Assembly (NCBI GenBank): GCA_028293565.1
Contig: JAQGON010000149.1
Location: 1 to 40,385, forward strand
Length of the DNA stretch: 40,385 nucleotides
Direction of reading: 5' to 3'
Source: Verrucomicrobiota bacterium
GTDB lineage: Bacteria; Verrucomicrobiota; Verrucomicrobiia; Opitutales; Opitutaceae
Within the stretch, counting starts at the first letter, position 1. Every line of letters starts with the position of its first letter. Positions 5,131 to 37,209 of this stretch are shown piece by piece. The translations under genes and the position numbers were made by a program. The notes below the pieces were generated by a model. It did no database searches. It saw only the letters and a list, made by a program, of their open reading frames with translations, and was not told the DNA's origin.

Positions 5131-5144
5131 GATAAAAATCTTCT

Positions 5145-10007: not shown

Positions 10008-10023
10008 AAATTTTTCGGGGACG

Positions 10024-12296: not shown

Positions 12297-12355
12297 GCCA
12301 TAATGTTCGGTTTGATAGGGTCGCATGGTTGTTCCCCGCCTTCCCCGTTCCCGCC

Positions 12356-12847: not shown

Positions 12848-12860
12848 CCGGGACTCCGTC

Positions 12861-13382: not shown

Positions 13383-13407
13383 CCGCCGGCCCTCTCTTTT
13401 TTTCACC

Positions 13408-13938: not shown

Positions 13939-13982
13939 ACCCACGAAATTTTTTCTCTCCCCAAAATCACATCGTTAAAATC

Positions 13983-15041: not shown

Positions 15042-15085
15042 ACCGGGGTTCTCAGGCGCCCTCCCGGGCGCTTGTGACGAGATCA

Positions 15086-15125
15086 CCGGGTGCGCGGCTT
15101 GCCGCGCACCCGGTTTGATTTTTTA
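15086..15125 (+). terminator. Rho-independent terminator after the propeller gene
   Basis: A perfect 12-bp stem (CCGGGTGCGCGG at 15086-15097 pairing with 15102-15113) with a CTTG loop is followed by a T-rich tract (TTTGATTTTTT). It lies 44 bases after the propeller stop codon and closes the four-gene secreted-protein unit. Confidence 0.88.
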
Positions 15126-15274
15126 GGGAAGGAAAACGGCCCCGGCGCCCGGGTGCCGCGAGCTCATAGACATTTTTAATCACTGAGTGAGCGGAATACG
15201 CTTTTACGAACCTTGGGCGGATTCGGTATGATCGGGCGCCCCCTCGATTGACGTCACTCTGAAGCAATCAACGA

Positions 15275-16810: not shown

Positions 16811-16915
16811 CCCGGTCCCGCCCCCTTTCCGCCCGTCTGGACGAGAATCCCCGGAATCCCGGGGCCACGTCACGGATCCTGCGGCCCGGAACCTCCCTTT
16901 CTCCATTTTTCACCT

Positions 16916-18136
16916 ATGATCGCTCCGTTGTCCGTCTCTTTTCGCGCCGGCCGCCATTTCCTCCAAATCCCGGGTCCGAGCAACGTGCCCGACCGGATTC
17001 TCCGCGCCATGAACCGCGCCACGATTGACCATCGCGGCCCGGAGTTCGCGCGCCTCGGCGCGGAGTGCCTGGAGGGGATGAAGACGATTTTCCGCACGGA
17101 GGACAACGGCCACGTCTTCATCTACCCCGCCGGCGGCACCGGCGCCTGGGAGGCGTCGATCGTCAACACGCTCAACACCGGCGACCGCGTCCTGATGTTC
17201 GAGACCGGCCACTTCGCGACACTCTGGCGGCGCATCGCCGAGAAATTCGGCCTGAACGTCGACTTTGTGAAGGGGGACTGGCGGCACGGCATCTCCGCCG
17301 CGACGGTCGAGGCGAAACTCCGCGACGACCCGTCACACGCGATCAAGGCGGTGATGTGCGTCCACACGGAAACGTCGACGGGGATCACGAGCAACATCGC
17401 GGAGGTCCGCCGCGCGATGGACGCCGTGCACCATCCGGCGCTCCTGATGGTGGACGCGGTGTCCTCGCTCGCGACCTGCGCGTTCCGCCAGAAGGAGTGG
17501 GGCGTCGACGTGGCCATCGCCGCGTCCCAGAAGGGCCTGATGCTGCCGCCGGGACTGGGCTTCAACGCCGTGAGCGCCAAGGCGCTCGGCGCGTCGCAGC
17601 ATGCGCGGATGCCGCGATCGTACTGGTCGTGGGACGACATGCTCGCATTCAACGACAAGGGTTTTTTCCCGTACACGCCGGCCACCGGCCTGCTCTACGG
17701 GTTGCGCGAATCGATCCGGATGCTCGTGCACGAGGAGGGGCTCGCGCACGTTTTCCAGCGGCACCAGCGGCTCGCCGAGGCGGCGCGCGAGGCGGTGGGG
17801 GCGTGGGGCCTCGAGCTGCTCGCCGAGGACCCGCGGGAATTCAGCAGCGTGGTCACTGCCGTGATGCTGCCCGGAGGCTGCGACGAGGCCGAGTTTCGCC
17901 GCGTCGTCCTGAATAATTTCGACCTCTCGCTCGGCGCCGGGCTGGGCCGGCTCGCCGGAAAGGTTTTCCGCATCGGACACCTGGGCGACTTCAACGACCT
18001 CATGCTGTGCGGCACGCTTTGCGGGGTGGAAATGGGGCTGGCGAAGTTCGGCCTGCCGCCGAAGGAAAGCGGCGTCGTCGCGGCGATGGCCGTGCTCGCG
18101 AAGGTGCCGTCGGCGGTGGCTTCCGGCGCCGCGTGA
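16916..18136 (+). CDS. Serine-glyoxylate aminotransferase-like (class V, PLP)
   Basis: 406 residues of the alanine/serine-glyoxylate transaminase branch of class V aminotransferases. Seen: HFLQIPGPSNVPDRIL near the N-terminus, HRGPEF, YPAGGTGAWEAS, the cofactor-binding DAVSSLA and the Schiff-base Lys206 in AIAASQKGLMLPPG, then the IGHLGD segment near the C-terminus. In serine-cycle and photorespiration-like pathways this enzyme converts serine + glyoxylate to hydroxypyruvate + glycine. The next gene is a large flavin 2-hydroxyacid dehydrogenase, which could supply glyoxylate from glycolate; the two reading frames touch or overlap. The substrate pair is inferred from family resemblance and could instead be alanine-glyoxylate. 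Confidence 0.92.
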   Translation: MIAPLSVSFRAGRHFLQIPGPSNVPDRILRAMNRATIDHRGPEFARLGAECLEGMKTIFRTEDNGHVFIYPAGGTGAWEASIVNTLNTGDRVLMFETGHFATLWRRIAEKFGLNVDFVKGDWRHGISAATVEAKLRDDPSHAIKAVMCVHTETSTGITSNIAEVRRAMDAVHHPALLMVDAVSSLATCAFRQKEWGVDVAIAASQKGLMLPPGLGFNAVSAKALGASQHARMPRSYWSWDDMLAFNDKGFFPYTPATGLLYGLRESIRMLVHEEGLAHVFQRHQRLAEAAREAVGAWGLELLAEDPREFSSVVTAVMLPGGCDEAEFRRVVLNNFDLSLGAGLGRLAGKVFRIGHLGDFNDLMLCGTLCGVEMGLAKFGLPPKESGVVAAMAVLAKVPSAVASGAA

Positions 18137-21100
18137 AGGCCGATCCGATGACGTCCTCGAGCCAGCCAGTCACCGAGGCCAGTGTGCTCGCCCCGGTGGC
18201 GGCGCGCGCGGCCGGCCCGCCGCCGGCGCTGCCGCCGAGCTCCCACGCCGTGCCCGTTGACGGCTTCGCGGAGGCCGCGGCGCTCGAGCGCCTGCTGCGC
18301 GCGACCGTCAAGGGGGAGGTGCGCTTCGACCGCGGCAGCCGCGCCGCCTACTCGATGGATGCCTCGAATTACCGGCAGATTCCCATCGGGCTCGTGATCC
18401 CGCGCGACGAGGAGGATGTGATCCAGGCGGTTGCCGCCTGCCGGAAATTCCGGGCGCCGATCCTGGCGCGCGGCGCCGGGACGAGCCTCGCGGGGCAGGC
18501 GTGCAACGCGGCGGTCGTCCTGGATTTTTCAAAGCATCTCAACCGCATCGTCGAACTCAATCCGGCCGGACGCTACGCGCGCGTGCAGCCTGGAATCGTG
18601 CTCGACACCCTCCGCGACGCGGCGGAGGAGCATTTTCTCACCTTCGGCCCGGATCCGTCCACGCACAACCGGTGCACGCTCGGCGGGATGATCGGCAACA
18701 ACTCCTCGGGGGCCCACGGCCTGATGGCCGGAAAGGTCCAGGAGAACATCGAGGAGATGCGCGTGCTGCTCTACGACGGCACGATCCTGACCGTCGGGCC
18801 GACGACGCCCGCCGAACGGCTGGCCATCGCCGCCGCCGGCGGACGGCGCGGCGAAATCTACCTGCGCCTCGCCGAACTGTGCACCCGGCACGCCGACCGC
18901 GTGCGGAAGCGGTTCGCGCAGATTCCGCGACGCGTTTCCGGCTACAACCTCGACGAGCTGCTGCCGGACTCGGCGTTCAATGTCGCGCGCGCCCTCGTCG
19001 GCAGCGAGGGCACGTGCGCGATCGTCCTCGAGGCGAAGGTCCGGCTGGTGCCGAGCCCGCGGAAGCGATCGCTCGTCTGCCTGGGATACCCGGACGTCTT
19101 CCTGGCGGCGGACGCGGTGGCGGATATCCTGCGGTTCCGCCCGATCGCGCTCGAGGGCTTCGAGGGCGACGTCCTGGCGGTGATGCGGCAGAAAAATTTC
19201 CTGCTCGAAAACATCGCGCTCCTGCCGCCGGGGAACGGCTACCTGCTGGTCGAGTTCGGCGGGGACACCGCCGCGGCGGCGGATGCGGCGGCGGACGAGC
19301 TGGTGGCCTGGCTCCGCTCTAGCCCCGGCGCCCCGAACATCAAGGTCGTGCGCGACCCGGGCGAGGTTTCGCGCATCTGGAAAGTGCGCGAATCGGGCAA
19401 CGGCAGCACGACCGTGATCCCCGGGCTGCCGTCGATCACGCACGAGGGCTGGGAGGATGCGGCGGTTCATCCCCGCGTGCTGGGGCCGTACCTGCGCGAC
19501 TACAAGGCGCTGCTCGCGCGTCACGGCTACCAAGGCTGGTACTACGGCCACTTTGGCGAGGGCGTGGTGCACCAGCGCGTGACCTTCGATCTCGAATCGG
19601 TGGACGGCGTGCGCGGGTTTCGCGTGTTCCTGGAGGAAGCCGCCGACCTGGTGGTCCGCTACGGCGGCTCGATTTCGGGCGAGCATGGCGACGGCCACGG
19701 ACGCGCCTTCCTCTACGAAAAAATGTTCGGCGCGGAACTGGTCGAGGGTTTTCGCGAGTTCAAGCAGATCTGGGATCCGGCGAACGGCCTGAACCCCGGC
19801 AAGCTCGTCGACGCGTATCCGCCCGAGGCGCACCTCAAGCTCGGCGCCGATCACAACCCGCGCCCGGTCAAAACCCATTTCTCGTTCCCCGACGACCTCG
19901 GCTCGCTGGAGAGGGCGACGCAGCGGTGTGTCGGCGTCGGCGCCTGCCGCAAGGCGGACGCGGGCACGATGTGCCCGAGCTATCAGGTCACGCGCGAGGA
20001 GATCCATTCGACGCGCGGGCGGGCCCACCTGCTGTTCGAGATGCTGCAGGGCGAGGTCATCGCGGACGGATGGCGCAGCGAGGCCGTGAAGGACTCGCTC
20101 GACCTCTGCCTCGGCTGCAAGGGCTGCAAGAACGAATGCCCCACGAGCGTGGACATCGCGACGTACAAGGCCGAGTTCATGGCGCACCACTATGAAGGCC
20201 GCCGGCGCCCGCTCAACCATTTCGCCTTCGGTTACATCGACCGGCTGGCGCGCCTGGCCGCGAAGGCGCCTCGCGTGGCGAATTTCCTCGGCACGGCGCC
20301 GCTGATCGGACGCGCCGCGCGGGCGGTCCTCGGCGTGGCCCGGCAGCGGACGCTGCCGAAATTCGCGCCCGAGACCTTCGTGCGCTGGCTCCGGCGGCAG
20401 CCGTCCCGGAACGGCCAGCGCGGGGAGGTGGTGCTCTTCGCGGACACGTTCAACAATTATTTCCATCCCTCCACCTCGCAGGCGGCGTGGGAGGTGCTCA
20501 CGACGGCGGGTTTCCAGGTTCATGTGCCGCAGGCCCAGGGACACCTTTGTTGCGGGCGTCCGCTTTATGACTTCGGTCTGCTCGACGCCGCGAAGCGCTA
20601 CCTCGAGCAGGTGCTGGAGGTTCTCGCGCCGCACATCAAGGCGGGGCGGCCGGTGATCATGCTCGAGCCGAGCTGCGCCAGCGTGTTTCGCGACGAGCTG
20701 CGCAATCTGCTGCCGGATCATCCGCTGGGCCAGGCGCTGCGCCAGCAGACCTTTGCCCTCAGCGAATTTCTGCAGAGCAAGGCGGCGAATTATTCGCCGC
20801 CGCGGCTGCCGGGGCGGAAGGTCCTGCTGCACGGTCATTGTCATCACAAGGCCGTGCTGAAATTCGCCGACGAGGAGGCGCTGCTCCGGCGGATGGGGGT
20901 CGAGTTGAAGACCCTCGACAGCGGCTGCTGCGGGATGGCGGGCCCGTTCGGATTCGAGGAAGAGAAGTTCGAAATCTCGCAGGCGCTCGGCGAGCGCGTG
21001 CTGCTGCCGGCGGTGCGCGCCGCCGCGGACGAGACGATCGTCCTGACCGACGGCTTCAGCTGCCGGGAGCAGATTGTGCAGAACACCGCACGGCAGCCGC

Positions 21101-23057: not shown

Positions 23058-23096
23058 AAAAAACATCCGCCGCCGGTCCCCGCCCTCAGGCGGCGG
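23058..23096 (-). terminator. Rho-independent terminator of the GntR/HDH/SDR unit
   Basis: CCGCCGCC (23067-23074) pairs perfectly with GGCGGCGG (23089-23096), leaving a 14-base loop that contains the SDR stop codon. On the minus strand the stem is followed by ATGTTTTTTG. It therefore ends transcription of the SDR gene and shields the cytochrome gene; the upstream arm is inside the last SDR codons. Confidence 0.75.
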
Positions 23097-23865
23097 TCCA
23101 GCCGCCGTCGACCATGAGGGCCGAGCCGGTCACGAGCGCGGCCGCGTCGCCGGCCAGAAAAACCACCGGGCCCATGATGTCGGCCAGTTCGCCCAGCCGT
23201 CCGAGGGCAATTTTCGCGAGCACCCAGTCCCGGAATTGCGGGTCGTTGAACTGGGTGCGGGTGAGGGCGGTCCGGATGAAGGTGGGGCAGATCGAATTCA
23301 CGCGGATGCCATCCGGGCCCCATTCCCAAGCGAGGGCCTTGGTCATGCCTTCGAGCGCGTGTTTCGAGGCGCAGTAGACGGCGCGCTTGGGGCCGCCCAC
23401 GTGCCCCATCTGCGACGAGACCTGGATGATCGATCCCGGCAGCCCGGCGGATTTCAGGCCCCGCGCCACCTCGCGCGCCATCACCATCGCCGCGTTCACG
23501 TTCAGGTTGAGGACTTCGTCGATGTCGCGGTCCGGGGTCTCGAGCAGGAGCGCGGGCCGGTTCGTGCCGGCGTTGTTGACCAGAATCCGGAAGGGACCGT
23601 GACGCGCGACGAATTCCCGCACCGCGTCAAAATCGGTCACGTCCAGGGTCTGCGCGCCCGCCTTCAGGCCCCGGGAGCGCAGCGCCGCGGCGACCCCTTC
23701 GATCTCCGCGGCGGTGCGCGCGACCAGGGTCACGTCCGCCCCGGCTTCCGCGAGCGCCACCGCCGCCGCCATTCCGAGCCCGCGGCCCGCCCCGGTCACG
23801 AGCGCCTTTCGTCCGTCCAGGCGGAAGGAAGGAGTCGTGGGCAGCGAAGGGTCGTGGGTTTCCAT
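23086..23865 (-). CDS. Short-chain dehydrogenase/reductase, NAD(P)-dependent
   Basis: 259 residues of the classical SDR family: cofactor loop TGAGRGLG (24-31), NNAG (97-100), catalytic Ser near 150-151, Tyr164 and Lys168 (YCASK), and the C-terminal GSALMVDGGW. Arg50 after the second strand (VARTA) would favour NADP(H), though this is weak evidence. Third gene of the unit GntR - histidinol-dehydrogenase-like - SDR, 26 bases after the preceding stop. It resembles gluconate/3-oxoacyl-type SDRs and probably oxidises or reduces a hydroxy acid or sugar acid in that pathway. The real substrate is unknown. Confidence 0.93.
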   Translation of the reverse strand: METHDPSLPTTPSFRLDGRKALVTGAGRGLGMAAAVALAEAGADVTLVARTAAEIEGVAAALRSRGLKAGAQTLDVTDFDAVREFVARHGPFRILVNNAGTNRPALLLETPDRDIDEVLNLNVNAAMVMAREVARGLKSAGLPGSIIQVSSQMGHVGGPKRAVYCASKHALEGMTKALAWEWGPDGIRVNSICPTFIRTALTRTQFNDPQFRDWVLAKIALGRLGELADIMGPVVFLAGDAAALVTGSALMVDGGWTAA

Positions 23866-23891
23866 CGTGGGAGGAAGGGCGGGGACGAGGG

Positions 23892-25208
23892 TCAGGCCGG
23901 CGGCGCCGGCTGATAGAGCGGCACGTCGCGGTGCCCGAAGCGCCGCACGCGCAGGTTCGCCTGCTCGCCGTGCGCGATGAAATTCTCCATGTGGCAGAGG
24001 CGCGAGCAGTATTCGCCCACTTTCGCCGACGCCGCATCCGTCAGGACCTTCTGATAGGTGCAGGTCTTGATGAACTTCCCCACCCAGAGGCCGCCGGTGT
24101 AGCGCGCCGCGCGGTTGGTGGGGAGCGTGTGGTTGGTGCCGATGACCTTGTCGCCGAAGGCGACGTTGGTGCGCGCACCGAGGAAGAGCGCGCCGTAGTT
24201 CGTCATCCGCTCGAGGAAATAGTCGGGATCCTTCGTCATCACCTGCACATGCTCCGAGGCGATCTCATCCGCCTTCCGGACCATTTCGTCGAGCGTGTCG
24301 CACACGATCACCTCGCCGCAGTCGGCCCACGAGATCCGCGCGATCGCGGCGGTCGGAAGCGTCGAGAGCTGCACCTCGATCTCGGCGAGCGTGGCGCGCG
24401 CGAGGGATTCGGAGGTGGTCAGGAGAATCGACGGCGACGTCGGTCCGTGCTCGGCCTGGCCGAGGAGGTCCACCGCGCACAACTCGGCGTCCGCGCTGTC
24501 GTCCGCGATCACCAGCGTCTCCGTCGGCCCGGCGAGGAGGTCGATGCCCACGCGGCCGAAAAGCTGGCGCTTGGCCTCGGCGACATAGGCGTTGCCCGGC
24601 CCGACGAGCATGTCGACGGGCGCGACGGTTTCGGTGCCGAGGGCCATGGCGACGACGGCCTGGACGCCGCCGAGCACGAGGATCTGGTCGGCCCCGGCGA
24701 AATGCATGGCGGCGACGATGGCCGGGTGCGGCGCGCCCTTGTACGGCGGCGCGGTGGACACGATGCGCTTCACGCCGGCGACCTTGGCGGTGAGCACGCT
24801 CATGTGCGCGGAGGCGATCATCGGATATTTTCCGCCGGGGATGTAGCAGCCGACCGCGTTCACGGGGATGTGCCGGTGGCCGAGGACGACGCCCGGGAGC
24901 GTTTCCACCTCGAGGTCGACGAGGGTGGCGCGCTGGCGCTCGGCAAAATTGCGAATCTGCCGCTGCGCAAACTGGATGTCCTCGATCTCCCGCGCCGAGA
25001 GCTGGCCGACCGCGCGCTCGATCTCCTCCTGGCCCAGGGTGAAGCTGGCCGGGTCCCAATGGTCGAGCCGGCGCGAGAACTCGCGCACCGCGTCGTCGCC
25101 GCGCGACTGGATCGCCGCGATCATGGTTTCAACGGTCTGCCGCACTTCGGCGTCGGCGGAGGCCCGGTCGCTGGCGGGCTTCCCGCGGGATTTCAAATTT
25201 CGGATCAT
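23892..25208 (-). CDS. Histidinol-dehydrogenase-family alcohol dehydrogenase (catabolic, HpsN-like)
   Basis: 438 residues starting at ATG 25208, which overlaps the GntR stop by four bases (ATGA). The family oxidises a primary alcohol to a carboxylate in two NAD-dependent steps with one zinc. Conserved: [30 protein letters not shown]-type nucleotide region, [10 protein letters not shown], zinc ligands Gln251 and His254 (GQAEHG), catalytic Glu319-His320 (ASEHVQ), an Asp in [13 protein letters not shown] and a His near the C-terminus ([11 protein letters not shown]). The C-terminal part resembles the catabolic branch (such as sulfopropanediol dehydrogenase HpsN) rather than biosynthetic HisD, and no his genes are near. 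Cotranscription with a GntR and an SDR fits catabolism of an alcohol or hydroxy acid; which one is not known. Confidence 0.9.
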
Positions 25209-26158
25209 GGCTTGATGGGATGGGAGGTGACCGCCTCGAGCTTGCGCACCAGGGAGGAGGCGAGGTGTTGACGGAGAAATCTGGCGGCGCCCTGGCGGTC
25301 GCCGGCATCGATCAGCGAGAGCAGCCGGAGGTGGTCGCGACACTCGCGCACCAGCCGCGCGCGGTCGAGCTTGCTGCGGTATTCGAGCAGCCGCCGCAGC
25401 CGGTTGATGCGGCGGAGGGCGTCGTTGTAGAAGGGATTGTTCGCGCCGGCGATGATGCCCTCGTGAAAGGACGAGCCGATCTCGAAGAGCTCCATCCGCG
25501 TGTACTGCAGGATCCCGCCCCCGAGCATCGCCTGCTGCCGGGCGCGCAGGTCCGCGGAAATTTTCGGCTCGAGCCGGTACCCCGGCTCGAGCAGCGCGGC
25601 GGGCTCGATCACCATCCGGAACCGGTGGCCCTGCTCGTAGGCCTCGACCGAGTCGAGCAGGCTCTGGAATTCCCAGCCCTTGCCGGGCAGCCGGTCGATC
25701 CAGCCTTCGTGCATGATCCGCGTGAGGATCGGGATCAGCCGCGGACGCGAGATCGAATACCGGCGCATCAGCATCGACTCCGTCACGCGGGCGGGGAGCT
25801 GTCCGTCCAGGCGGTCCTCGGCGATCTGCAGGTAGGACCGGTCCTCCGGCGTGGGCTGCTCGGGACCGGCGATCTGGTCGGAATGCTTGGCGAGAAAATA
25901 GCCGCGCTTCGCGGACTTGCCGACGAAGCCGGTGTCCGCGAGGAATTTCAGCGCGGCCCGGGCCGGGGTGCGCGAGACCTTGAGCATCTCCGCCACGCTT
26001 CGCTCGGTCAGATGCGCGCCTGCGGGCAGATTCCGCGCCTTCACCTGCTGCAGGATCTGCATCGCCAGCCGCGTCGACAGCGTGCGCTGCGGCGCCGCCG
26101 ATCCGGGGCGGCCCGGGGCCGCGGCCGGGGCGCGACGTCGTCGGTGGTATTTAGGCAT
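25205..26158 (-). CDS. GntR/FadR-type regulator with two winged helices
   Basis: 317 residues, longer than the usual 220-250 for this family. After a basic N-terminal tail, residues about 27-92 are a GntR winged helix ([19 protein letters not shown], then [19 protein letters not shown] and the wing KRGYFLA). Residues about 105-165 look like a second one ([20 protein letters not shown], then [19 protein letters not shown]). Residues about 175-310 are an all-helical FCD-like ligand domain ([30 protein letters not shown]-like [16 protein letters not shown]). It probably represses its own operon and the divergent dehydrogenase gene, whose start is only 35 bases away, and responds to a pathway acid. 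First gene of the minus-strand unit. Confidence 0.9.
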
Positions 26159-26170
26159 TTACAAATACCA
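26145..26170. promoter_or_regulatory. Candidate GntR operator over the divergent starts
   Basis: TGGTATTT (26145-26152) and AAATACCA (26163-26170) form a perfect 8-bp inverted repeat with a 10-base spacer. It covers the regulator's own start codon (26156-26158) and ends 23 bases before the ATG of the divergent dehydrogenase gene. AT-rich within a GC-rich surrounding. A GntR dimer bound here would block both genes. Inference from symmetry and place only. Confidence 0.5.
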
Positions 26171-26193
26171 AGGTTGGATCACGACTTCGGGCA

Positions 26194-27315
26194 ATGACAA
26201 CTGCAATTTCCGCGACAGGAACGAACGTGCGTCCGAACCGGATTGTGGTTCTCCCCGGGGACGGGATCGGCCCGGAGATCTCGGCCGCCACGCTCGCCGT
26301 GCTCGACGTGGCGAACGAGCGGCTCGAACCCCGCCTGGAATTCGAGACGCACGAGATCGGCCTTTCCCGGCTGGCGAAGGACGGATCCACCTTTCCGAAG
26401 TCCGTGTTCGAGGCGGCGCAGCGCGCGGACGGGATCATCACGGGCCCGGTGTCGCATTCCGACTATCCGGACCGCGCGGCGGGGGGCATCAACGTCTCCT
26501 CGGAGCTGCGCAAGACGCTCGACCTTTATGCGAACATCCGGCCGAGCCGGAGCCGCGAGGGGCTGCCCCACTGGGGCCGCACGGGGATGGACCTCGTGAT
26601 CGTGCGGGAGAACACGGAGGGTTTTTATTCGGACCGCAACATGCACTGGGGGGTCGGGGAGTTCATGCCGACTCCCGATCTCGCGCTGTCGGTCCGCAAG
26701 GTGACCGCCGAAGCCTCGCGGCGAATCGCCCTGGCGGCGTTCGAACTCGCGGCGCAGCGGCGGAAAAAGGTCACGGCCGTCCACAAGGTGAATGTGATCA
26801 AGATCTCGGAGGGGCTCTTCCTCCGGGAGGTCCGCAAGGTCGCGGCCGAATTTCCCGGCGTGAAATACGAGGAGCAGCTCATCGACTCGATGGCGGCGCT
26901 GCTCGTGCGCGACGCCGCGCGCTTCGACGTGGTTGTGACCACGAACATGTTCGGCGACATCATTTCGGACGAGGCGGCGGAATTGTCCGGCAGCCTCGGA
27001 CTGGCGGGCAGCCTGAACGCCGGGGATCATCACTGCATGGCACAGGCGCAGCATGGATCGGCGCCGGACATCGCGGGCAAGGACCTTGCCAACCCGACTT
27101 CACTGATCCTTTCCGCCGCGATGCTGCTCGACTGGCTCGGGCGCCGGAAAAAGGCCACGAGCTACGTTCGCGCGGCGGCGGCGATCACCGAGGCGATCGA
27201 CGAGGCGCTGGTGCAGCCGGCCTCGCGCACGCCGGATCTCAAGGGCACCGTCGGCACGCGCGCGTTCGGCGCCCTCGTGGCGGAGCACGTCCGGCGCAAA
27301 CTGGCGCAGGGTTGA
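26194..27315 (+). CDS. Isocitrate/isopropylmalate-family beta-decarboxylating dehydrogenase
   Basis: 373 residues. Family features are the N-terminal VVLPGDGIGPEI, the substrate arginines in NIRPSRSREGLP, IVRENTEGFYSDRN, the catalytic Lys in AVHKVNVIKIS, the metal-binding aspartates in VVVTTNMFGDIISDEAAEL, and the cofactor loop HGSAPDIAGKDLANP. The enzyme oxidises a 2-hydroxy-dicarboxylate and releases the beta-carboxyl as CO2. Leucine or TCA genes are not nearby, so a catabolic substrate such as malate, tartrate or an alkylmalate (as in TtuC/DmlA) is more likely than isocitrate. Divergent from the dual-winged-helix GntR and followed after six bases by the racemase-fold gene. GTG at 26227 is an alternative start. 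Confidence 0.92.
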   Translation: MTTAISATGTNVRPNRIVVLPGDGIGPEISAATLAVLDVANERLEPRLEFETHEIGLSRLAKDGSTFPKSVFEAAQRADGIITGPVSHSDYPDRAAGGINVSSELRKTLDLYANIRPSRSREGLPHWGRTGMDLVIVRENTEGFYSDRNMHWGVGEFMPTPDLALSVRKVTAEASRRIALAAFELAAQRRKKVTAVHKVNVIKISEGLFLREVRKVAAEFPGVKYEEQLIDSMAALLVRDAARFDVVVTTNMFGDIISDEAAELSGSLGLAGSLNAGDHHCMAQAQHGSAPDIAGKDLANPTSLILSAAMLLDWLGRRKKATSYVRAAAAITEAIDEALVQPASRTPDLKGTVGTRAFGALVAEHVRRKLAQG

Positions 27316-27321
27316 AGCCTC

Positions 27322-28023
27322 ATGAACGCCGCGCCCAGCTCCCCTCCGCGTCCGCGAATCGGTCTGATCCACGCGCTCGCACAATCCCAGCCGCCGGTGC
27401 TGGCGGCCTTCGCCGCGCTCTGGCCCGAGGCCGAGACCTTCAACCTCCTCGACGACTCGCTGGCCCCGGATCTCGCCGCGACGGGGAGCCTGGATCAGGC
27501 GATGATGGACCGGTTCCTGGCGCTCGCGACGTATGCCGCGCAGGCCGGCCCGCGCGAAAGCGCGACCCGGGGAATCCTGTTCACCTGTTCGGCTTTCGGG
27601 CCGGCGATCGAGCGGGTCCAGCGCGTGCTCGGGCTGCCGGTGCTGAAACCCAACGAGGCCGCTTTCGAGCAGGCGCTCGAATCGGGAAAGAAGATCGGAC
27701 TGGTCGCGACGTTTCCCTCTGCGCTGACCCCGATGCTGGCGGAGTTTCGCGCGATGGCGCAGGCCTCCGGCCGGGACGCCACGATCGAGGCGAAGGTCGC
27801 CGACGGCGCGCTGGCGGCGCTGTGCGAGGGCGCTTTGGAAAAACATGACGCGTTGATCGCGGACGCCGCGCAGGCGCTCGGGCCGATGGACGTCCTCGTG
27901 CTCGGCCAGTTTTCCATGGCTCGCGCCGCCGGGCTGGTTTCAGCCCGCACCGGCACGCGGGTGCTGACGACGCCGGAAGCGGCCGTGGCGAAGATGCGCC
28001 GGCTCGTGGGGTCCGGCCGCTGA
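27322..28023 (+). CDS. Asp/Glu-racemase-superfamily protein lacking the second catalytic Cys
   Basis: 233 residues with the two-domain racemase fold: N-terminal RIGLIHALAQSQPPVLAAF, first catalytic Cys89 in GILFTCSAFGPAI, linker KKIGLVATFPSALTPML, and the C-terminal domain with MDVLVLGQFSMARA. In two-base racemases the latter segment carries a second Cys (as in GCTHFP); here the equivalent residue seems to be Gln196. One remaining cysteine suggests a one-base reaction such as decarboxylation, isomerisation or C-C/C-N cleavage rather than racemisation, or a binding role. Six bases after the beta-decarboxylating dehydrogenase gene, so they form a two-gene unit under the divergent GntR. Confidence 0.85.
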   Translation: MNAAPSSPPRPRIGLIHALAQSQPPVLAAFAALWPEAETFNLLDDSLAPDLAATGSLDQAMMDRFLALATYAAQAGPRESATRGILFTCSAFGPAIERVQRVLGLPVLKPNEAAFEQALESGKKIGLVATFPSALTPMLAEFRAMAQASGRDATIEAKVADGALAALCEGALEKHDALIADAAQALGPMDVLVLGQFSMARAAGLVSARTGTRVLTTPEAAVAKMRRLVGSGR

Positions 28024-28115
28024 CCAACAGGGTGGCACGCGTTGTCCCGACGCGTTCGCGGCTCCGGCCGTGTGTTCGCCAGGAAGCCGGGACCAGATCC
28101 GGGGTCGGAAGGGAT

Positions 28116-28227
28116 GGCCGCAAAAAAGCACAAGGGCTCGGTGGCTCCGGATCGAATCTCCCGTGCGCCGATGGGCGCGATGGCAACTCCTTCACAAACC
28201 CCGGAGCCCTTGCGCATTTTTGCGGCC
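28116..28227. repeat. 112-bp element with 24-bp inverted ends
   Basis: GGCCGCAAAAAAGCACAAGG and the next four bases (28116-28139) match the reverse complement of 28204-28227 at 22 of 24 positions. Inside, GGCTCCGG (28143-28150) and CCGGAGCC (28201-28208) give a second, partly competing pairing. The symmetry and lack of coding potential suggest a non-autonomous dispersed element. Confidence 0.65.
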
Positions 28228-28297
28228 AACCTGTCGGCTCACATCCCTAGGGCATTGAGCGCTGGATGGACCCGATGTAAGGGGACAACGCCGCCAC

Positions 28298-28390
28298 CTC
28301 CCGGTAGCAGCCGCCGTCAGGCGGCTGAATGGATTACGCTCGATCGGTCGGGTGCAGCGACGGCCTCCTGACGTCGGCCGCTACCGGGAG
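28298..28390. repeat. 93-bp REPIN-like palindromic element
   Basis: Perfect 11-bp inverted ends CTCCCGGTAGC (28298-28308) and GCTACCGGGAG (28380-28390). Just inside the left end is a 7-bp hairpin AGCCGCC-GTCA-GGCGGCT (28309-28326); the right side has GGCC-N10-GGCC around GACGTC. Two hairpin units facing each other is the layout of REPINs mobilised by RAYT enzymes. No RAYT gene is in the window. Confidence 0.7.
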
Positions 28391-28435
28391 ATATCGGCTT
28401 CGAAAGGTGGGCTGCGTTTCCCCATGATCGGTTTG

Positions 28436-28462
28436 GTTTATCACAGAATATCTAAGATAAAC
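28436..28462. promoter_or_regulatory. Candidate operator of the malonate decarboxylase operon
   Basis: GTTTATC (28436-28442) and GATAAAC (28456-28462) are perfect 7-bp inverted arms separated by 13 bases, in an AT-rich patch 71 bases before the mdcA ATG. T-N-A symmetry of this size suits a LysR-type regulator (MdcR-like). The only LysR gene in the window is at 38095, about 9.6 kb away, so the protein that binds here is not identified. Confidence 0.45.
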
Positions 28463-28533
28463 TTTTACCTCCGCTCCCGTCGTGGGTTAAGATGATCGTC
28501 TACTTTCATGAAGGTGACGAATTAGGAGACTGA

Positions 28534-30198
28534 ATGTCCTCCAAACCGCCAGCTCCCGTTCAACCCCCCCGGTGCTGGACGCTGCGACAGGATGCGAAGG
28601 CGCATCGGCTGGCGCGCGTCGCGCAATGGACGAAGGACCGTGTCCTCGACAGCAGCCGGATCGTCGAGGCGCTGGAAGCGCTGATCGAACCCGGGGACCG
28701 CGTCTCGCTGGAAGGAAACAACCAGAAACAGGCGGATTTCCTCTCGCGGTCGCTCGCCGCGGCGTCGCCGGAAAAACTTCACGACCTCCATCTCATCATC
28801 TCGAACATCAACCGTCCGGAGCACCTGGACCTGTTCGAGCGGGGGATCGCGCGCAAGGTGGATTTCGCGTTCGCCGGCATGCAGAGCCTGCGCGTGGCGC
28901 AGCTGCTCGAGGACGGTAAGCTGCAGATCGGCGCGATCCACACGTACGTGGAGCTTTACGCGCGCATGTTCGTCGACCTGACGCCGAACATCGCCCTCGT
29001 CTGCGCGGAAAAAGCCGATGCCCAGGGCAACCTCTACACCGGCGCGAACACCGAGGACACCCCGACGATCGTCGAGGCGACCGGCTTCCGGCACGGAATC
29101 GTGATCGCGCAGGTCAACGAGCTGACGGACACCCTGCCGCGGGTGGATATTCCCGGCTCGTGGATCGATCTCGTCGTCGTCGCGGACCGCCCCTACGCGG
29201 TCGAATCGCTCTTCACCCGCGATCCGAGGCTGATCAATGACATGCACATTCTGATGGGGATGATGGTCATCCGCGGGATTTATGAGCGGCATGGCGTCAC
29301 CAGCCTGAACCACGGCATCGGTTTCGACACGGCGGCGATCGAACTGCTCCTGCCGACTTACGGGGGAAAGCTCGGGTTGCGCGGGAAAATCTGCCGGCAC
29401 TGGGCGCTCAATCCGCACCCGACCCTGATTCCCGCGATCGAAAGCGGATGGGTCGAGAGCATCCATTGCTTCGGGAGCGAAGTCGGGATGGGGGATTATA
29501 TCGCGGCGCGGTCGGATGTTTTTTTCGTGGGGCGCGATGGCAGCATGCGTTCCAACCGCGTGCTCTGCCAGATGGCCGGCCAGTATGCGGTGGATCTTTT
29601 CATCGGATCGACGCTGCAGATGGACGGCGAGGCAAACTCCTCGACCGTCACGCAGGGGCGAATGGCCGGTTTCGGCGGCGCGCCCAACATGGGTCACAAT
29701 CCCGGCGGGCGCCGCCACGCCAGCCCGGCGTGGCTCAGCCTGATCACGGGGGACAGCCCGGTGATGCGGGGCCGGAAGCTCGTCGTGCAGATGGTCGAGA
29801 CCTTCGCCAAGGGCGGCGAGCCGGCCTTCGTCGAAACCCTCGACGCGGTGGCCGTCGGGAAAAAATGCGGGCTGCCGATCGCCCCGGTGATGATCTACGG
29901 CAGCGACGTCAGCCACGTGGTGACGGAGGAGGGAATCGCGTACCTCTACAAGGCCGACGGCCTGAAGCAGCGCCGCGAAGCGCTGGCCGCCGTGGCGGGC
30001 CTGAGTCCGATCGGACGGCGGAGCAATCCTCGGCGGCTCGCCAAGCTGCGCCAGGACGGGCTGGTGGCGCTGCCGGAGGATCTCGGCGTCGCCCGCTCCG
30101 ACGCGAAGCGCTCGCTGCTCGCGGCGAGGAGCATCGAGGACCTCGTGGCCTGGTCGGGAAATCTTTACAGCCCGCCGGCGAAGTTCCGCAGCTGGTAG
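28534..30198 (+). CDS. mdcA: Malonate decarboxylase alpha subunit (acetyl-S-ACP:malonate ACP transferase)
   Basis: 554 residues, the normal MdcA length. It swaps acetyl for malonyl on the ACP subunit, the first step in the malonate decarboxylase cycle. The protein has the two-part CoA-transferase-like fold of the family: EPGDRVSLEGNNQKQADFLS near residues 50-70, IGAIHTYVELYARMF, NLYTGANTEDTPTIVEAT, and in the second half TLQMDGEANSSTVTQGRMAGFGG-type region followed by HNPGGRRHASPAW, and ENF-like VTEEGIAYLY. A good ribosome binding site (AGGAG, five bases before ATG) and an upstream symmetric site mark it as the first gene of mdcABCDEGH. mdcB follows two bases after the stop. Confidence 0.97.
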   Translation: MSSKPPAPVQPPRCWTLRQDAKAHRLARVAQWTKDRVLDSSRIVEALEALIEPGDRVSLEGNNQKQADFLSRSLAAASPEKLHDLHLIISNINRPEHLDLFERGIARKVDFAFAGMQSLRVAQLLEDGKLQIGAIHTYVELYARMFVDLTPNIALVCAEKADAQGNLYTGANTEDTPTIVEATGFRHGIVIAQVNELTDTLPRVDIPGSWIDLVVVADRPYAVESLFTRDPRLINDMHILMGMMVIRGIYERHGVTSLNHGIGFDTAAIELLLPTYGGKLGLRGKICRHWALNPHPTLIPAIESGWVESIHCFGSEVGMGDYIAARSDVFFVGRDGSMRSNRVLCQMAGQYAVDLFIGSTLQMDGEANSSTVTQGRMAGFGGAPNMGHNPGGRRHASPAWLSLITGDSPVMRGRKLVVQMVETFAKGGEPAFVETLDAVAVGKKCGLPIAPVMIYGSDVSHVVTEEGIAYLYKADGLKQRREALAAVAGLSPIGRRSNPRRLAKLRQDGLVALPEDLGVARSDAKRSLLAARSIEDLVAWSGNLYSPPAKFRSW

Positions 30199-30200
30199 CC

Positions 30201-31106
30201 ATGCAAACCGGGACCAGAACGGAACGGGATTCGGGCGGGACCGCGGTGCGCGACGCGGATGCGGTCCCCGGCTCCGGCGTGCTCGCGGACCTCGCGGTGC
30301 AGGCGTTGCGGGACGAAGCCGTTCTCACGCCGAAGCCCGGCCTGGTGGATCGCCGCGGTTCCGCGGCGCACGACGACATGGACGTCGCGCTGCTGCTGCG
30401 TTCGGCGGATTCCCTCCGGCCCACGTTCGCCGCGATCGCGCGGACGGCGCGGGATCGGGAGCCGTCGGCCGCCCTCCAGGCCTCGCTGGCGGAAATCGGC
30501 CGGGCAGGGGAGCGCGAGATGCTGGACGCGACGGGCGGAGTGAACACCCACCGCGGCGCGATCTGGACGCTCGGCCTGCTGGTGGGCTCGGCGGCGATGG
30601 GTCCGGGGACCGCCGGCGATTGGTGCCGGCGCGCAGCAACTCTCGCGGGACTGCATGACTGCGATCCCGATGCCGCGAGCAATGGCCTTCGGGTGAAACG
30701 TCGCTTTGGTTCGGCGGGTGCGCGCGGCGAGGCGGAGGACGGGTTTCCGCATATTCTCCGGCACGGTCTTCCGACGTTGCGCCGCGTGCGCGCGCAGGGC
30801 GGCTCGGAAACGCGCGCGCGCCTGGACGCGCTGCTGGCGATCATCGCGGAACTGGACGACACCTGTCTTCTCCACCGCGGGGGCCGGGCGGGTCTGGACG
30901 CCGCAAAGCAGGGAGCCCGGCAGGTGCTGTCGGCCGGGGGCGCGGCGTCGGACGCCGGCTTTTCCGTGCTCGTCAATTTTGGCGCCGAGCTGGTTCGCCG
31001 CCGCCTCTCTCCGGGAGGAAGCGCCGACCTGCTGGCGGGCGTGCTGTTTTTGGACGCGTTGGAAAATCTCGGCGAGCCGTCATCCGATGGAAAAACTCAT
31101 TTTTAA
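30201..31106 (+). CDS. mdcB: Triphosphoribosyl-dephospho-CoA synthase
   Basis: 301 residues of the CitG/MdcB family, which makes the precursor of the ACP prosthetic group from ATP and dephospho-CoA. Visible motifs are the N-terminal LTPKPGLVDRRGSAAHDDMD, GGVNTHRGAIWTLGLLV, KRRFGSAGARGEAEDGFPHI and LHRGGRAGLDAAKQGAR. The ATG at 30201 follows the mdcA stop by two bases; the gene's last 20 bases overlap the start of mdcC. The first 30 residues are a low-complexity, probably flexible extension. Confidence 0.95.
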   Translation: MQTGTRTERDSGGTAVRDADAVPGSGVLADLAVQALRDEAVLTPKPGLVDRRGSAAHDDMDVALLLRSADSLRPTFAAIARTARDREPSAALQASLAEIGRAGEREMLDATGGVNTHRGAIWTLGLLVGSAAMGPGTAGDWCRRAATLAGLHDCDPDAASNGLRVKRRFGSAGARGEAEDGFPHILRHGLPTLRRVRAQGGSETRARLDALLAIIAELDDTCLLHRGGRAGLDAAKQGARQVLSAGGAASDAGFSVLVNFGAELVRRRLSPGGSADLLAGVLFLDALENLGEPSSDGKTHF

Positions 31107-31383
31107 ATATCCCGCGGCATCCGAGCTCGTTTCCCGGCGCGCGCATGTTGGCGTCGTCGCGTCGGGCGACATGGAAGTCCTGCTGGAACCTTCCGGTGCG
31201 CCGGGCGCGCGGATCGTCGTGAACACGAGCGTCGATGGCTATCGCCGGACCTGGAAAGGCGTGCTCGACCGTTTTTTCTCCCATTACCGCGGAGCCGCCG
31301 CGATCGAGATCAATGATTTCGGGGCGACGCCGGGAACCGTGCTGCTGCGCCTGGAGCAGGCCGCCGAGAAAAGCCGCCGATGA
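31087..31383 (+). CDS. mdcC: Malonate decarboxylase acyl carrier protein (delta subunit)
   Basis: 98 residues, the standard size. This small protein carries the 2'-(5''-phosphoribosyl)-3'-dephospho-CoA group on a serine in the motif VVASGDMEVLLEP, here Ser26. The C-terminal part NDFGATPGTVLLRLEQA is typical. It starts inside the 3' end of mdcB (20-base overlap) and overlaps mdcD by four bases (ATGA), so translation of the three genes is coupled. The prosthetic group is made by MdcB and attached by MdcG, both in this operon. Confidence 0.95.
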   Translation: MEKLIFKYPAASELVSRRAHVGVVASGDMEVLLEPSGAPGARIVVNTSVDGYRRTWKGVLDRFFSHYRGAAAIEINDFGATPGTVLLRLEQAAEKSRR

Positions 31384-32279
31384 ACCCGGTTCCTCCAAGT
31401 CCCACCGCGCTGGCCGCCGAGCATTTTCTGGCGCGGCAGAGCTTCATCGAGCTGAAGGCCCGCGAACGCGCGGAGCTGCTGGTGGATGCCGGGACCGCGC
31501 GCGAGCTCGCCGGCCCGTTCGACCGGATCTCGTCGCCGTGGCTGGCCGCGCAGGGTCTCGTGCCGCAGGCCGACGATGGCGTGGTGATCGTCCGCGGCGC
31601 GATGAATGCGCGGCCGGTGGTCGTGATTTCGATCGAAGGAGGCTTTCAGGGCGGAAGCATGGGCGAAGTCTCCGCCGCCAAGATCGCCGCGTCACTCGAT
31701 CTCGCGCGGAAGGTCGGTGAGCAAGGCACGCCGATCCCGGCCGTCCTGGTTTTCGAGAGCGGCGGCGTGCGCCTGCAGGAGGCCAACCTCGGGCTCGCGC
31801 TCACCGGGGAGATCCATCGCGCGATGCTCGCGCTCCGCCGGGTCGTGCCGGTGGTCGGGGTGATTCCGGGGATGGTCGGATGTTTTGGCGGCATGGCGAT
31901 CGCGGCGGCGCTTTGCTCGCATCTCATCATGACGCGGGAAGGGCGCCTTAGTCTGAACGGGCCCGAGGTGATCGAACAGGAAGCCGGCCCCGCGGAATTC
32001 GATTCCCACGACCGGAAGCTGATCTGGGAGATCACCGGCGGCGCCCAGCGCTATGCCGCTGGCTTTGCGGACGAACTGGTCGAGGACGACGTGCAAACGC
32101 TGGCGGACGCCCTGCGCGCCGCGCTCGCGCGCGGGGTGCCGGCGCGCCACCGGAGCGAGCGCGTCGGCGAATTCCTGGAGCGCATCGCGCGAATCGATGA
32201 CCCGCTGCGCTTCGACAGCGCCATGCTGCGGGATCTGTTCGCCGGACTCAAAACGGATGAGCGCCACGTCTCACGCTGA
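31380..32279 (+). CDS. mdcD: Malonate decarboxylase beta subunit
   Basis: 299 residues of the carboxyltransferase (crotonase-like) fold. With MdcE it decarboxylates malonyl-S-ACP to acetyl-S-ACP. Recognisable: RQSFIELKARERAELLVD near the N-terminus, VISIEGGFQGGSMGEVSAAK (oxyanion-hole region), LVFESGGVRLQEANLGL, GMVGCFGGMAIAAALCSHLI and LNGPEVIEQEAGPAEFD. The four-base overlap with mdcC and 13-base gap to mdcE keep the subunit genes tightly linked. Confidence 0.96.
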   Translation: MNPVPPSPTALAAEHFLARQSFIELKARERAELLVDAGTARELAGPFDRISSPWLAAQGLVPQADDGVVIVRGAMNARPVVVISIEGGFQGGSMGEVSAAKIAASLDLARKVGEQGTPIPAVLVFESGGVRLQEANLGLALTGEIHRAMLALRRVVPVVGVIPGMVGCFGGMAIAAALCSHLIMTREGRLSLNGPEVIEQEAGPAEFDSHDRKLIWEITGGAQRYAAGFADELVEDDVQTLADALRAALARGVPARHRSERVGEFLERIARIDDPLRFDSAMLRDLFAGLKTDERHVSR

Positions 32280-32292
32280 CGGGAGATTCACT

Positions 32293-33123
32293 TTGAAGAC
32301 CGAATCCATTCCTTCATCTGCGAGCCGCGGGCGCACCTGGTTCGAGGCGCTCTGCGGAGCGTCCTCCGCATCGGCGACGGTGCCGTCGGTCCTGGCCGGG
32401 GATGCCGATCTCTCCGCCGAGCGCGTCCGGTTCATTTCCGTGGTGCCCGATCCCTCGAACCGTTTTCCGCGCGTCCGCAAAGGCGAAGTGGGGGTGGAGG
32501 AGGGCTGGATGATCGCGAAACACGGGCGCGACGTGATCGCCGAAAACACGGAAGCCAAAAGGCCGATCGTCGCGATCGTCGACCTCCCCGGGCAGGCGTT
32601 CGGGCGGCGCGAGGAGATGATGGGCATCTTCCTGTCCTGTGCGGCGGCGGCCGACATGTACGTCGCGGCGCGGATGGCGGGCCACCCGGTCGTTTCCCTC
32701 GTGGTCGGACCGGCCTTCTCGGGCGGGTTTCTCGCCCACGGTTACCAGTCGCACCGGATTCTGGCGCTGGACGACCCGGGCGTTTTGATCCATGCGATGG
32801 GACAGAAGGCGGCGGCGCGCATCACGCGGCATTCCTTGGCGGAGTGGCAGCAGCTGAGCGAAAAAATCCTTCCGATGTCCTACGACATCCACGCCTGCGC
32901 CAAATTGGGGATCGTGCACCAGCTCATCAAGGTCGCGAGCGCCACCGCCCCCGACGCCTCGGATCTCAAGCGCGTGCGCGCGAGGTTGTCCGCGGCCATC
33001 GCCGACGCGCGCGAGGAAATCAACCGTCCCCGCCAGAATGAAACCAAGCCGCTGAGGCACCGGCAGGCTTCGTTCGAAGTCGCGCAGCGCCTCGCGGAAC
33101 AATGGGGCGGGCCCGCGGCCTGA
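32293..33123 (+). CDS. mdcE: Malonate decarboxylase gamma subunit
   Basis: 276 residues; the second carboxyltransferase-fold subunit, partner of MdcD. Features are VVPDPSNRFPRVRKGEVGVEE-type N-terminal region, IVAIVDLPGQAFGRREEMMG, VVGPAFSGGFLAHGYQSHRI, and LDDPGVLIHAMGQKAAARIT. No ATG exists before the conserved part; a TTG at 32293 preceded by GGGAG seven bases upstream gives a normal-length protein and is chosen as start. Rare TTG initiation may lower its translation relative to mdcD. 24 bases separate it from mdcG. Confidence 0.93.
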   Translation: MKTESIPSSASRGRTWFEALCGASSASATVPSVLAGDADLSAERVRFISVVPDPSNRFPRVRKGEVGVEEGWMIAKHGRDVIAENTEAKRPIVAIVDLPGQAFGRREEMMGIFLSCAAAADMYVAARMAGHPVVSLVVGPAFSGGFLAHGYQSHRILALDDPGVLIHAMGQKAAARITRHSLAEWQQLSEKILPMSYDIHACAKLGIVHQLIKVASATAPDASDLKRVRARLSAAIADAREEINRPRQNETKPLRHRQASFEVAQRLAEQWGGPAA

Positions 33124-33147
33124 GAAAAAACTTCCGCCGCCGTCGCC

Positions 33148-33801
33148 ATGTCTCCGACCACGCGCCCGCATGATTTGTTTCGGATCGGTCCGCGCGGGAT
33201 CGCGCCGGTTTTGACCGGAGCTCCCGCGTGGGTCGCCGCGGCGCTGGATCGCGCGCCGTATGTCGTGGCCACGCGGAACCCGGCGCCGGCGCGCATGGCG
33301 GCGGTCGGAGTGCGGGGCGCGTTGCGCGCCGAGCGGTTTGGCGCGGTCGTTTCCCGGGACATCCTGTCGGAGCCGACGACGCCGGAATTCCTGGCGGCGA
33401 CGCGCGCATGGGAAAAATCGCCGCGCCGCAGGGAGATTCCCGCATTCCGGGCGCTCGACGAACTGGCGGCGCGGTTGACGGACTCCGGCTGCGAGTGGGG
33501 TCCGGTGGGAAGCGTCGGTTTCGAACTGGCGACGGGTCGATCGACGGCGACGCCCGCGAGCGATCTGGACCTCGTGCTTTACTGTCCGCAGCGGCTTTCG
33601 AAACGGGCGGCGCTGGAACTGGCGGAGACGATGGTGTCCCGCGAATGCCGCGTCGACATCCTCATCGAGACGCCGGCCGGTGCGGTGTCACTCGCCGATT
33701 TTGCGCAGTCGGACGGCCAGGTTCTGCTCCGGACCTGCCGGGGTCCGCGGCTGGTCGACGACGCTTGGGCGGATCCTTCGCTCACGGCGATATTCCAATG
33801 A
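33148..33801 (+). CDS. mdcG: Phosphoribosyl-dephospho-CoA transferase (holo-ACP synthase)
   Basis: 217 residues of the MdcG family. It transfers the prosthetic group from the MdcB product to the serine of MdcC. The nucleotidyltransferase signature is clear: GPVGSVGFELATGRSTATPA followed by SDLDLVLY, and a later aspartate in ECRVDILIETPAG. The N-terminal PHDLFRIGP resembles the usual PHDLL start. It overlaps mdcH by four bases (ATGA). Confidence 0.94.
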   Translation: MSPTTRPHDLFRIGPRGIAPVLTGAPAWVAAALDRAPYVVATRNPAPARMAAVGVRGALRAERFGAVVSRDILSEPTTPEFLAATRAWEKSPRRREIPAFRALDELAARLTDSGCEWGPVGSVGFELATGRSTATPASDLDLVLYCPQRLSKRAALELAETMVSRECRVDILIETPAGAVSLADFAQSDGQVLLRTCRGPRLVDDAWADPSLTAIFQ

Positions 33802-34727
33802 GCCTCGCCTTCCTGTTCCCGGGCCAGGGGGCGCAGGCGGCGGGGATGTTGCGGGCGTTGCCGCGGCACCCGGCCATCGTCGCGACTCTGGCGGAGGCGA
33901 ACGGGGAATTGAAATGCGCGACCGCCGACCTCGACAGCGCGGATGCGTTGAGTTCGACGGAAGGGAGCCAGATCGCCCTGTTCATTGCCGGAGTCGCCGG
34001 CGCGCGCGCCCTGGCCGCCGAGTCGGTTCGCCCGGATTTTGTCGCGGGGATGTCCGTCGGCGCCTTTGCCGCTGCGGTCGTGGCCGGCGCCCTCGACTTT
34101 CCGTCGGCGCTGCTGCTGGTGCGCACCCGCGGCCGGTTGATGAGGGCGGCGTATCCGACCGGGCATGGCATGGCGGCCGTGGTCGGGCTGAATGAAGGGA
34201 CCGTCGGCGCGCTGGTCGGCGCCGTCAGCACGCCGGCGTCGCCGGTCTACCTCGCCAACGTCAACGCGCCGGACCAGATGGTCATCTCGGGCGCCGATGC
34301 GGCCATCGCCGCGGTGCTGGCGACGGCGCGTAAACGCGGCGCGCGCCGGACGCAGCGGCTGGATGTGACGGTGCCGTCGCACACGCCGCTTTTCCGCGAC
34401 GCGGCGGCGCAGCTGATGAAGGTGGCCGCGACGGTCGCGATGAAGGATGCCTCCATTCCGTACCTCGAAAACCGCGGGGCCCGCGCGATCACCGACGCGG
34501 AGAAAATCCGGGCGGATCTGGCGGGCAACCTGGCGGTGGCCGTCCGGTGGCATGACATGGTGCAGGGCGTGCTGGAACGCGGCGTGCGCGTCCTCGTTGA
34601 AATGCCTCCCGGCGCCACGCTGACCGACCTGGCCAAGGCGTCCTTTCCGGAAACCTGCGCCCTCGCGTTCGAGCGTCAGGACGTGCCGGGGCTCGTCCGT
34701 TCCATCGCGACCAATCGTGCGGGCTGA
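33798..34727 (+). CDS. mdcH: Malonyl-CoA:ACP transacylase of malonate decarboxylase
   Basis: 309 residues of the FabD-like acyltransferase family. It primes the ACP with malonyl from malonyl-CoA so that the decarboxylase cycle can start. Motifs: LAFLFPGQGAQAAGML, nucleophile elbow AGMSVGAFAAA (active Ser within GMSVG), a conserved Arg in LLLVRTRGRLM, ANVNAPDQMVISG and the His in VPSHTPLF. Starts at ATG 33798 within the end of mdcG. Last gene of the operon; the convergent 2HCT gene ends 67 bases further on. No mdcF, mdcL/M or mdcR follows. Confidence 0.95.
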   Translation: MSLAFLFPGQGAQAAGMLRALPRHPAIVATLAEANGELKCATADLDSADALSSTEGSQIALFIAGVAGARALAAESVRPDFVAGMSVGAFAAAVVAGALDFPSALLLVRTRGRLMRAAYPTGHGMAAVVGLNEGTVGALVGAVSTPASPVYLANVNAPDQMVISGADAAIAAVLATARKRGARRTQRLDVTVPSHTPLFRDAAAQLMKVAATVAMKDASIPYLENRGARAITDAEKIRADLAGNLAVAVRWHDMVQGVLERGVRVLVEMPPGATLTDLAKASFPETCALAFERQDVPGLVRSIATNRAG

Positions 34728-36138: not shown

Positions 36139-36291
36139 TTTCGCTGAGGAAAGCTTTCGACGACCAATCGGATAACAGGAGGGGAATCCCTCCAAACGGA
36201 CCGGGGTGATCCGCTCCGGGACAAAATAACATGCGCAACATTACCGCTGAATGATGCAACGCCGTTGACGCGAACGGGCCCGGACGGCGGT

Positions 36292-37196: not shown

Positions 37197-37209
37197 GGGA
37201 TGGAGGTTC

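Follow-up and report, generated by a model that had tools for sequence, protein, structure and literature searches.

Two otherwise separate catabolic modules probably combined in a Verrucomicrobiota genome: a candidate cassette for hydroxy-acid degradation

A 40,385-nucleotide contig of a Verrucomicrobiota bacterium of the family Opitutaceae (assembly GCA_028293565.1, contig JAQGON010000149.1), hereafter the window, carries a divergent five-gene catabolic cassette at positions 23086–28023. It encodes a histidinol-dehydrogenase-like (HisD-like) enzyme, a short-chain dehydrogenase/reductase (SDR), a GntR-family regulator, an enzyme of the isocitrate/isopropylmalate dehydrogenase family (IMDH-like) and an Asp/Glu-racemase-fold protein, a combination that a preliminary description of this DNA could assign to no pathway. 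The locus is regular, and its oddity is most readily accounted for if two recurrent modules were combined in it. With moderate confidence, we regard the cassette as a composite, probably acquired horizontally, of two modules that occur separately in the other bacteria examined, GntR-IMDH, with or without the racemase fold, and HisD-SDR. It is a testable candidate for hydroxy-acid degradation rather than a demonstrated new pathway.

All five open reading frames previously described in this span were recovered with Pfam support (Table 1). The best Pfam E-values of the cassette proteins range from 2.6e-137 (PF00815, HisD-like) to 7e-14 (PF01177), and the two GntR domains (PF00392 and PF07729) score about 1e-13 to 1e-12; the strength of these values for all five proteins indicates that none is a chance reading frame. 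The expected catalytic residues are all there in the HisD, IMDH and SDR proteins, and the enzyme class of each cassette protein is well supported.

The HisD-like and SDR genes are a recurrent pair, often with a LacI regulator. We examined the neighbourhoods of HisD relatives at 57 loci, 44 from genomes and 13 from plasmids. Where HisD is at least 72% identical to that of the window (14 loci: L015, L016, L017, L107, L167 and L171–L179; at least two further plasmid matches of that identity, H23 and H26, left out), an orthologous SDR adjoins it in 12 loci, the exceptions being L107 and L175, and LacI is close by in 12. Over the whole set, an SDR of about 46% identity or more stands beside HisD or within about 1.3 kb of it at 23 of the 57 loci (15/44 genome and 8/13 plasmid loci); SDR matches in the genome loci number 28 when distant SDRs are counted too, and LacI was scored in 13 of these 44. 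HpcH aldolases occur near HisD relatives at 5/44 genome loci and 3/13 plasmid loci, which fits with diacid or keto-acid chemistry. The window also contains an HpcH-family aldolase (36411–37241), 27–35% identical to the aldolases beside HisD in L105, L016 and L109, and its product may take part in the cassette metabolism as well.

The second unit consists of GntR and the IMDH-like gene, sometimes with the racemase fold, and is found in carboxylate and transporter clusters. Relatives of the IMDH-like protein (46–64% identity) gave 21 loci, some of them truncated at contig ends. GntR relatives (41–50% identity) are present in 8/21, or in 6/19 when L023 and L024, which were found via the GntR search, are left out; the racemase-fold protein is present in three (L007, L025 and, again found via the GntR search, L023). 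Tripartite tricarboxylate transporter genes, Ldh, aldehyde dehydrogenase, 2-hydroxyacid dehydrogenase, amidohydrolase and cupin genes recur in some of these loci. Hyi/OtnI-like genes lie near IMDH in three (L005, L006, L026) and never share a locus with the racemase-fold gene, although the numbers, three and three of 21, are too small for a conclusion.

No GntR, IMDH or racemase relative was found in the 57 HisD loci and no HisD in the 21 IMDH loci, so that the joined layout is found only in this genome among the matches listed. The earlier expectation that the two arms would be conserved together fails at all of these loci, which largely counts against a single pathway. Among the same matches, 4/14 IMDH-bearing genomes carry a HisD of this clade (62–75% identity) on contigs other than that of IMDH, judged by their differing lengths. 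These distributions, and the recurrent partners and regulator type particular to each arm (mostly LacI vs GntR), also support the explanation that two unrelated catabolic modules with different substrates lie side by side and that their shared control is incidental or absent, to which we give slightly less than an even chance. Such an explanation sits poorly with the overlap of the hisD start with the gntR stop and with the lack of either arm from the other 386 sampled genomes of the phylum at the set thresholds, which fits arrival as one unit. Co-function is further favoured by the orientation of gntR, which faces the IMDH gene. That the HisD-like and IMDH-like enzymes act on the same compound, and the arms thus form one route, nevertheless seems doubtful to us.

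The simplest history is that the genome acquired the cassette, for the contig is its own and each arm is rare within the phylum; the composite is therefore probably of horizontal origin. A close HisD (E ≤ 1e-150) and a close IMDH (E ≤ 1e-85) were each found in 1/387 sampled genomes of the phylum, in both cases this genome; in the order to which Duganella fentianensis belongs, 48/349 sampled genomes have a HisD of this clade. Contamination by a stray proteobacterial contig was first suspected because HisD, IMDH and mdcA are absent from relatives. It was rejected on DNA matches from the same genus to bases 1–20000, the right half not having been queried, and is also opposed by repeats shared with other contigs of the genome, including one in the right half. 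The tetranucleotide profile of the window agrees with that of the genome, but such profiles discriminate poorly here, with correlations to the genome's own contigs of 0.71–0.77 for window quarters and 0.62–0.68 for high-GC proteobacterial loci. The cassette itself has a GC content of 0.688, its mean correlation to the genome's own contigs (0.63) lies within the range of short own contigs (0.44–0.65), and composition by itself does not mark it as foreign.

The HisD-like enzyme resembles a sulfonate dehydrogenase but departs from it at the position of the sulfonate-binding His. Its closest solved chains are dehydrogenases of 2,3-dihydroxypropanesulfonate (DHPS) (8v35, E 1.4e-115), ahead of histidinol dehydrogenases. 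According to PMC11382572, His126 (in G-R-Y-A/S-H) and Lys353 of the DHPS dehydrogenase HpsN touch the sulfonate of R-sulfolactate, and the HisD loop in the His126 region is given as G-S-A-P-L. The window protein reads G-K-Y-P-M (window 24800–24860), with Met130 at the position of His126, and retains the Zn ligands, the Glu-His pair and an Asp-Lys that includes the sulfonate-contacting Lys of HpsN. Motifs were compared at 72 loci, 58 with at least 60% identity, one with 47% and 13 below 45%. All 57 readable relatives with at least 60% identity carry G[KR][YF]P[ML] and lack the sulfonate His, and DK is present in 58/58; the only locus at 47% has GRYAH with DK, and in all 13 loci below 45% the loop ends in Y and is accompanied by DY. 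The loops of these 13 (e.g., GKAAY) differ from the HisD loop quoted in PMC11382572. One IMDH-bearing genome (G456) holds both a member of the G[KR][YF]P[ML]/DK clade and an HpsN-type gene. By these residues, the clade is a third class, neither HpsN nor HisD. Retention of the Lys together with loss of the sulfonate His suggests that the anionic group of the substrate is not a sulfonate; a carboxylate would be the simplest candidate.

This residue class is common in sampled Burkholderiales and on plasmids (L015–L020, L105–L111, L167–L210), and most of the annotated plasmid records examined call it histidinol dehydrogenase, while one says hpsN. The Verrucomicrobiota genome has another hisD-like gene, probably biosynthetic, that is apparently split between the end of contig G000:C225 and the start of C80.

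The preliminary description had allowed that the enzymes might serve known separate pathways, such as DHPS oxidation and D-malate use; the version considered here is R-DHPS oxidation by HpsN with D-malate or tartrate use. The ranking of solved relatives and the PF13561 SDR partner, of the same family as hpsO in PMC11382572, speak for this assignment. A zinc-dependent alcohol dehydrogenase of the hpsP type (PF08240/PF00107) was not seen among 19 window proteins run against Pfam, a subset of its open reading frames. Met130 speaks against the assignment. The genome also has no Xsc over the cut-off (three weak matches) and no match to PF04295, the family to which we take SuyB to belong; CuyA was not searched. 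On the D-malate/tartrate side, the IMDH-like protein reaches 211.9 bits with the tartrate dehydrogenase model TIGR02089, which presumably takes in D-malate dehydrogenase as well, against a cut-off of 470.4 bits. DHPS oxidation by the HisD-like enzyme is unlikely, and the pair of known pathways as a whole is highly improbable.

The IMDH-like protein belongs to a distinct subfamily. Its active-site set is complete (R106, R116, R138, Y145, K198, D231, D255 and D259: three Arg, one Tyr, one Lys and three Asp), at PF00180 positions that we take to be the catalytic, substrate and metal residues of beta-decarboxylating dehydrogenases, and it scores below the respective cut-offs of all specific NCBIfam models listed. 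An insertion, DRN[ML]..G.GE, after the catalytic Tyr is common to this protein and the relatives aligned, and AQAQHGSAPDI is found in all aligned relatives except L023 (ANAGHGSAPDI). Our searches turned up no characterised member of the AQAQHGSAPDI subfamily, and a literature search gave no paper recognisable as being on it or on the non-HpsN HisD clade, an absence that is itself unproven. A route from tartrate to hydroxypyruvate was attractive because Hyi-like genes lie near IMDH in 3/21 loci; it was set aside, as the two Hyi-like genes scored, those of L005 and L006, fall under the cut-offs for hydroxypyruvate isomerase and 2-oxo-tetronate isomerase. Two routes already known are the OtnK/OtnC pathway and the ascorbate pathway, which has a decarboxylase of the PdxA family.

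The racemase-fold protein had been described as having one cysteine. Two are present, Cys89 and Cys168, but the idea of a single catalytic Cys is fair: only Cys89 is invariant in the six proteins aligned, and Cys168 is not conserved. In weak profile alignments, Cys89 falls at the position of the first catalytic Cys (with 2eq5, E 0.0012; with 1b73, E 0.95), and Gln196 takes that of the second in 5lfd (E 0.025). A structure model built from two sequences (mean predicted local distance difference test score, pLDDT, 81; predicted template modelling score, pTM, 0.80) matches 5lfd with a VIA Z of 21.0 and a root-mean-square deviation of 2.4 over 205 residues; its best Foldseek match is 2eq5 (E 1.3e-09), and arylmalonate decarboxylase and maleate isomerase are among the structure matches. 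With one conserved Cys, a two-base racemase mechanism is unlikely, and the protein may be a one-base tautomerase or lyase.

A series of reactions can be proposed from these enzyme classes. The HisD-like enzyme would oxidise the terminal CH2OH next to the CHOH of a hydroxy-carboxylate with two NAD+, yielding a 2-hydroxy-diacid, in what would be the carboxylate counterpart of the conversion of DHPS to sulfolactate; we consider the odds of this activity about even. The SDR would oxidise or invert a secondary hydroxyl. IMDH-family enzymes decarboxylate 2-hydroxy-diacids, and it is quite likely that the IMDH-like enzyme does so as well, in which case the diacid would be oxidised and its beta-carboxylate would leave as CO2. 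The racemase-fold protein would then tautomerise or protonate the enediol product. The classes and chemistry of the series envisaged earlier (alcohol to acid, secondary-hydroxyl redox, beta-decarboxylation) fit the conserved residues, whereas the arms that it unites were not found together elsewhere.

Several observations weigh against the explanation proposed here. The case for the arms acting jointly comes from a single genome, and no substrate was found for the HisD-like or the IMDH-like subfamily. Some IMDH loci are cut at contig ends and the genome matches covered are those listed, so a joined layout elsewhere could be missed, and distant IMDH homologues (36–43% identity) occur in 5/94 other related genomes. 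For two genes near IMDH relatives the best match is a sulfonate-pathway model, in each case far under its 500-bit cut-off: 263.8 bits for L-sulfolactate dehydrogenase and 150.5 bits for 4-sulfomuconolactone hydrolase. The genome has no hydroxypyruvate isomerase and no tartronate semialdehyde reductase over the cut-off, which weakens the tartrate-to-hydroxypyruvate version. Finally, neither the palindrome discussed below nor any other shared operator was found in the upstream regions of nine relatives.

In this genome, GntR probably controls both arms as a putative shared regulator. The gntR stop and the hisD start overlap at ATGA, and 26 bases separate hisD from the SDR gene downstream of it. 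A divergent region of 35 bases (26159–26193) had been reported, and this length holds between the longest open reading frames. A GTG at 26227 after AGGA gives the IMDH-like protein an N-terminus nearer to those of its relatives and is the probable real start, which may make the gap 68 bases rather than 35. A palindrome with perfect 8-bp arms overlaps the annotated GntR start (Table 1); the window has 34 perfect repeats of that size, and this is the sole one with AT-rich arms. Scans for sigma-70 promoters and terminators gave no excess over shuffles and no site within the divergent gap.

The malonate decarboxylase operon next to the cassette had suggested malonate or a substituted malonate as an intermediate. 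The operon adjoins the cassette on the strand of the IMDH arm, and mdcA was found in 1/57 related genomes searched (E ≤ 1e-100) and not in the 56 others, so mdc could have come with the cassette. MdcA is in none of the 78 neighbourhoods examined (0/57 HisD and 0/21 IMDH loci), however, the IMDH chemistry gives a 2-oxo acid and not malonate, and the two gene sets are separated by a 510-base gap (28024–28533), which contains an inverted repeat. We regard a malonate feed from the cassette to this complete-looking operon as very improbable. The inverted repeat recurs on a second contig of the genome as an 83% copy (L115), and a strong hairpin of about 200 bases (8433–8639) is repeated, wholly or in part, on several of the genome's other contigs. 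The contig also encodes two 2-hydroxycarboxylate transporters and a DctA (8643–10007, 34795–36195 and 38978–40276), as well as a BhcA-like aminotransferase and a YdiJ-like dehydrogenase, the last two under the cut-off, which make it a carboxylate-rich region.

Table 1. Features of the cassette and its flank in the window
Feature	Position	Strand	Basis
SDR (PF13561), paired with the HisD-like gene and downstream of it	23086..23865	-	Pfam
HisD-like Zn/NAD alcohol-to-acid dehydrogenase, G[KR][YF]P[ML]/DK clade	23892..25208	-	PF00815, motifs
GntR-family regulator with FCD domain	25205..26158	-	PF00392 + PF07729
Candidate operator TGGTATTT-N10-AAATACCA	26145..26170		Palindrome scan
IMDH-like enzyme, distinct subfamily	26194..27315	+	PF00180
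Asp/Glu-racemase-fold protein, single conserved Cys (Cys89)	27322..28023	+	PF01177
Imperfect inverted repeat between cassette and mdcA	28112..28231		Copy elsewhere in genome
Malonate decarboxylase operon, neighbour	28534..34727	+	mdcA, B, D, E, G, H by models; mdcC by reading only

The scientific interest of the locus lies in two uncharacterised subfamilies and in a residue test that parts the HisD clade from HpsN and HisD. A five-residue loop and one further position split three classes in the 72 loci, with one HpsN-type member only besides the solved chains, and provide a quick test for re-annotation. If the carboxylate reading is true, the enzyme would link acid sugars to hydroxy-diacids, and the IMDH subfamily would gain a testable substrate class. 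In its boldest form, a proposal that we rate as a long shot, the clade would be a widespread third functional class of the HisD family, oxidising aldonate-like acids (tetronates, 3,4-dihydroxybutanoate) at the terminal CH2OH straight to tartrate- or malate-type hydroxy-diacids; wired here to a diacid-decarboxylating IMDH subfamily, it would turn C4 acid sugars into 2-oxo acids without phosphorylation, the one-Cys racemase-fold enzyme taking the enediol.

Among known systems, R-2,3-dihydroxypropanesulfonate 3-dehydrogenase (HpsN, 8v35; PMC11382572) has the PF00815 domain, about 48% identity and an SDR partner in common with the HisD-like protein. Also shared are its Zn ligands, Glu-His pair and sulfonate-contacting Lys, whereas GRYAH in HpsN corresponds to GKYPM in the window protein. 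Histidinol dehydrogenase shares the fold, and the HisD-like protein passes TIGR00069 (447.3 vs a cut-off of 243.8 bits), yet its identity to 4g07 is 37% and it has DK, not DY, and GKYPM, not a loop ending in Y. NAD-isocitrate and homoisocitrate dehydrogenases (6m3s, 3asj) share the PF00180 core and catalytic residues with the IMDH-like protein, which differs in its polar N-x-S-S-E substrate helix, its DRNM insertion and the replacement of their E-x-VHGSAPDI motif by AQAQHGSAPDI. Allantoin, hydantoin and glutamate racemases (5lfd, 2eq5, 3hfr) share the modelled fold of the racemase-fold protein, which differs from them in having no second conserved Cys, with Gln196 in its place in a weak alignment. 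Arylmalonate decarboxylase presumably has its single Cys at the second position, whereas the Cys retained in the window protein appears, by the weak alignments with 2eq5 and 1b73, to be that of the first.

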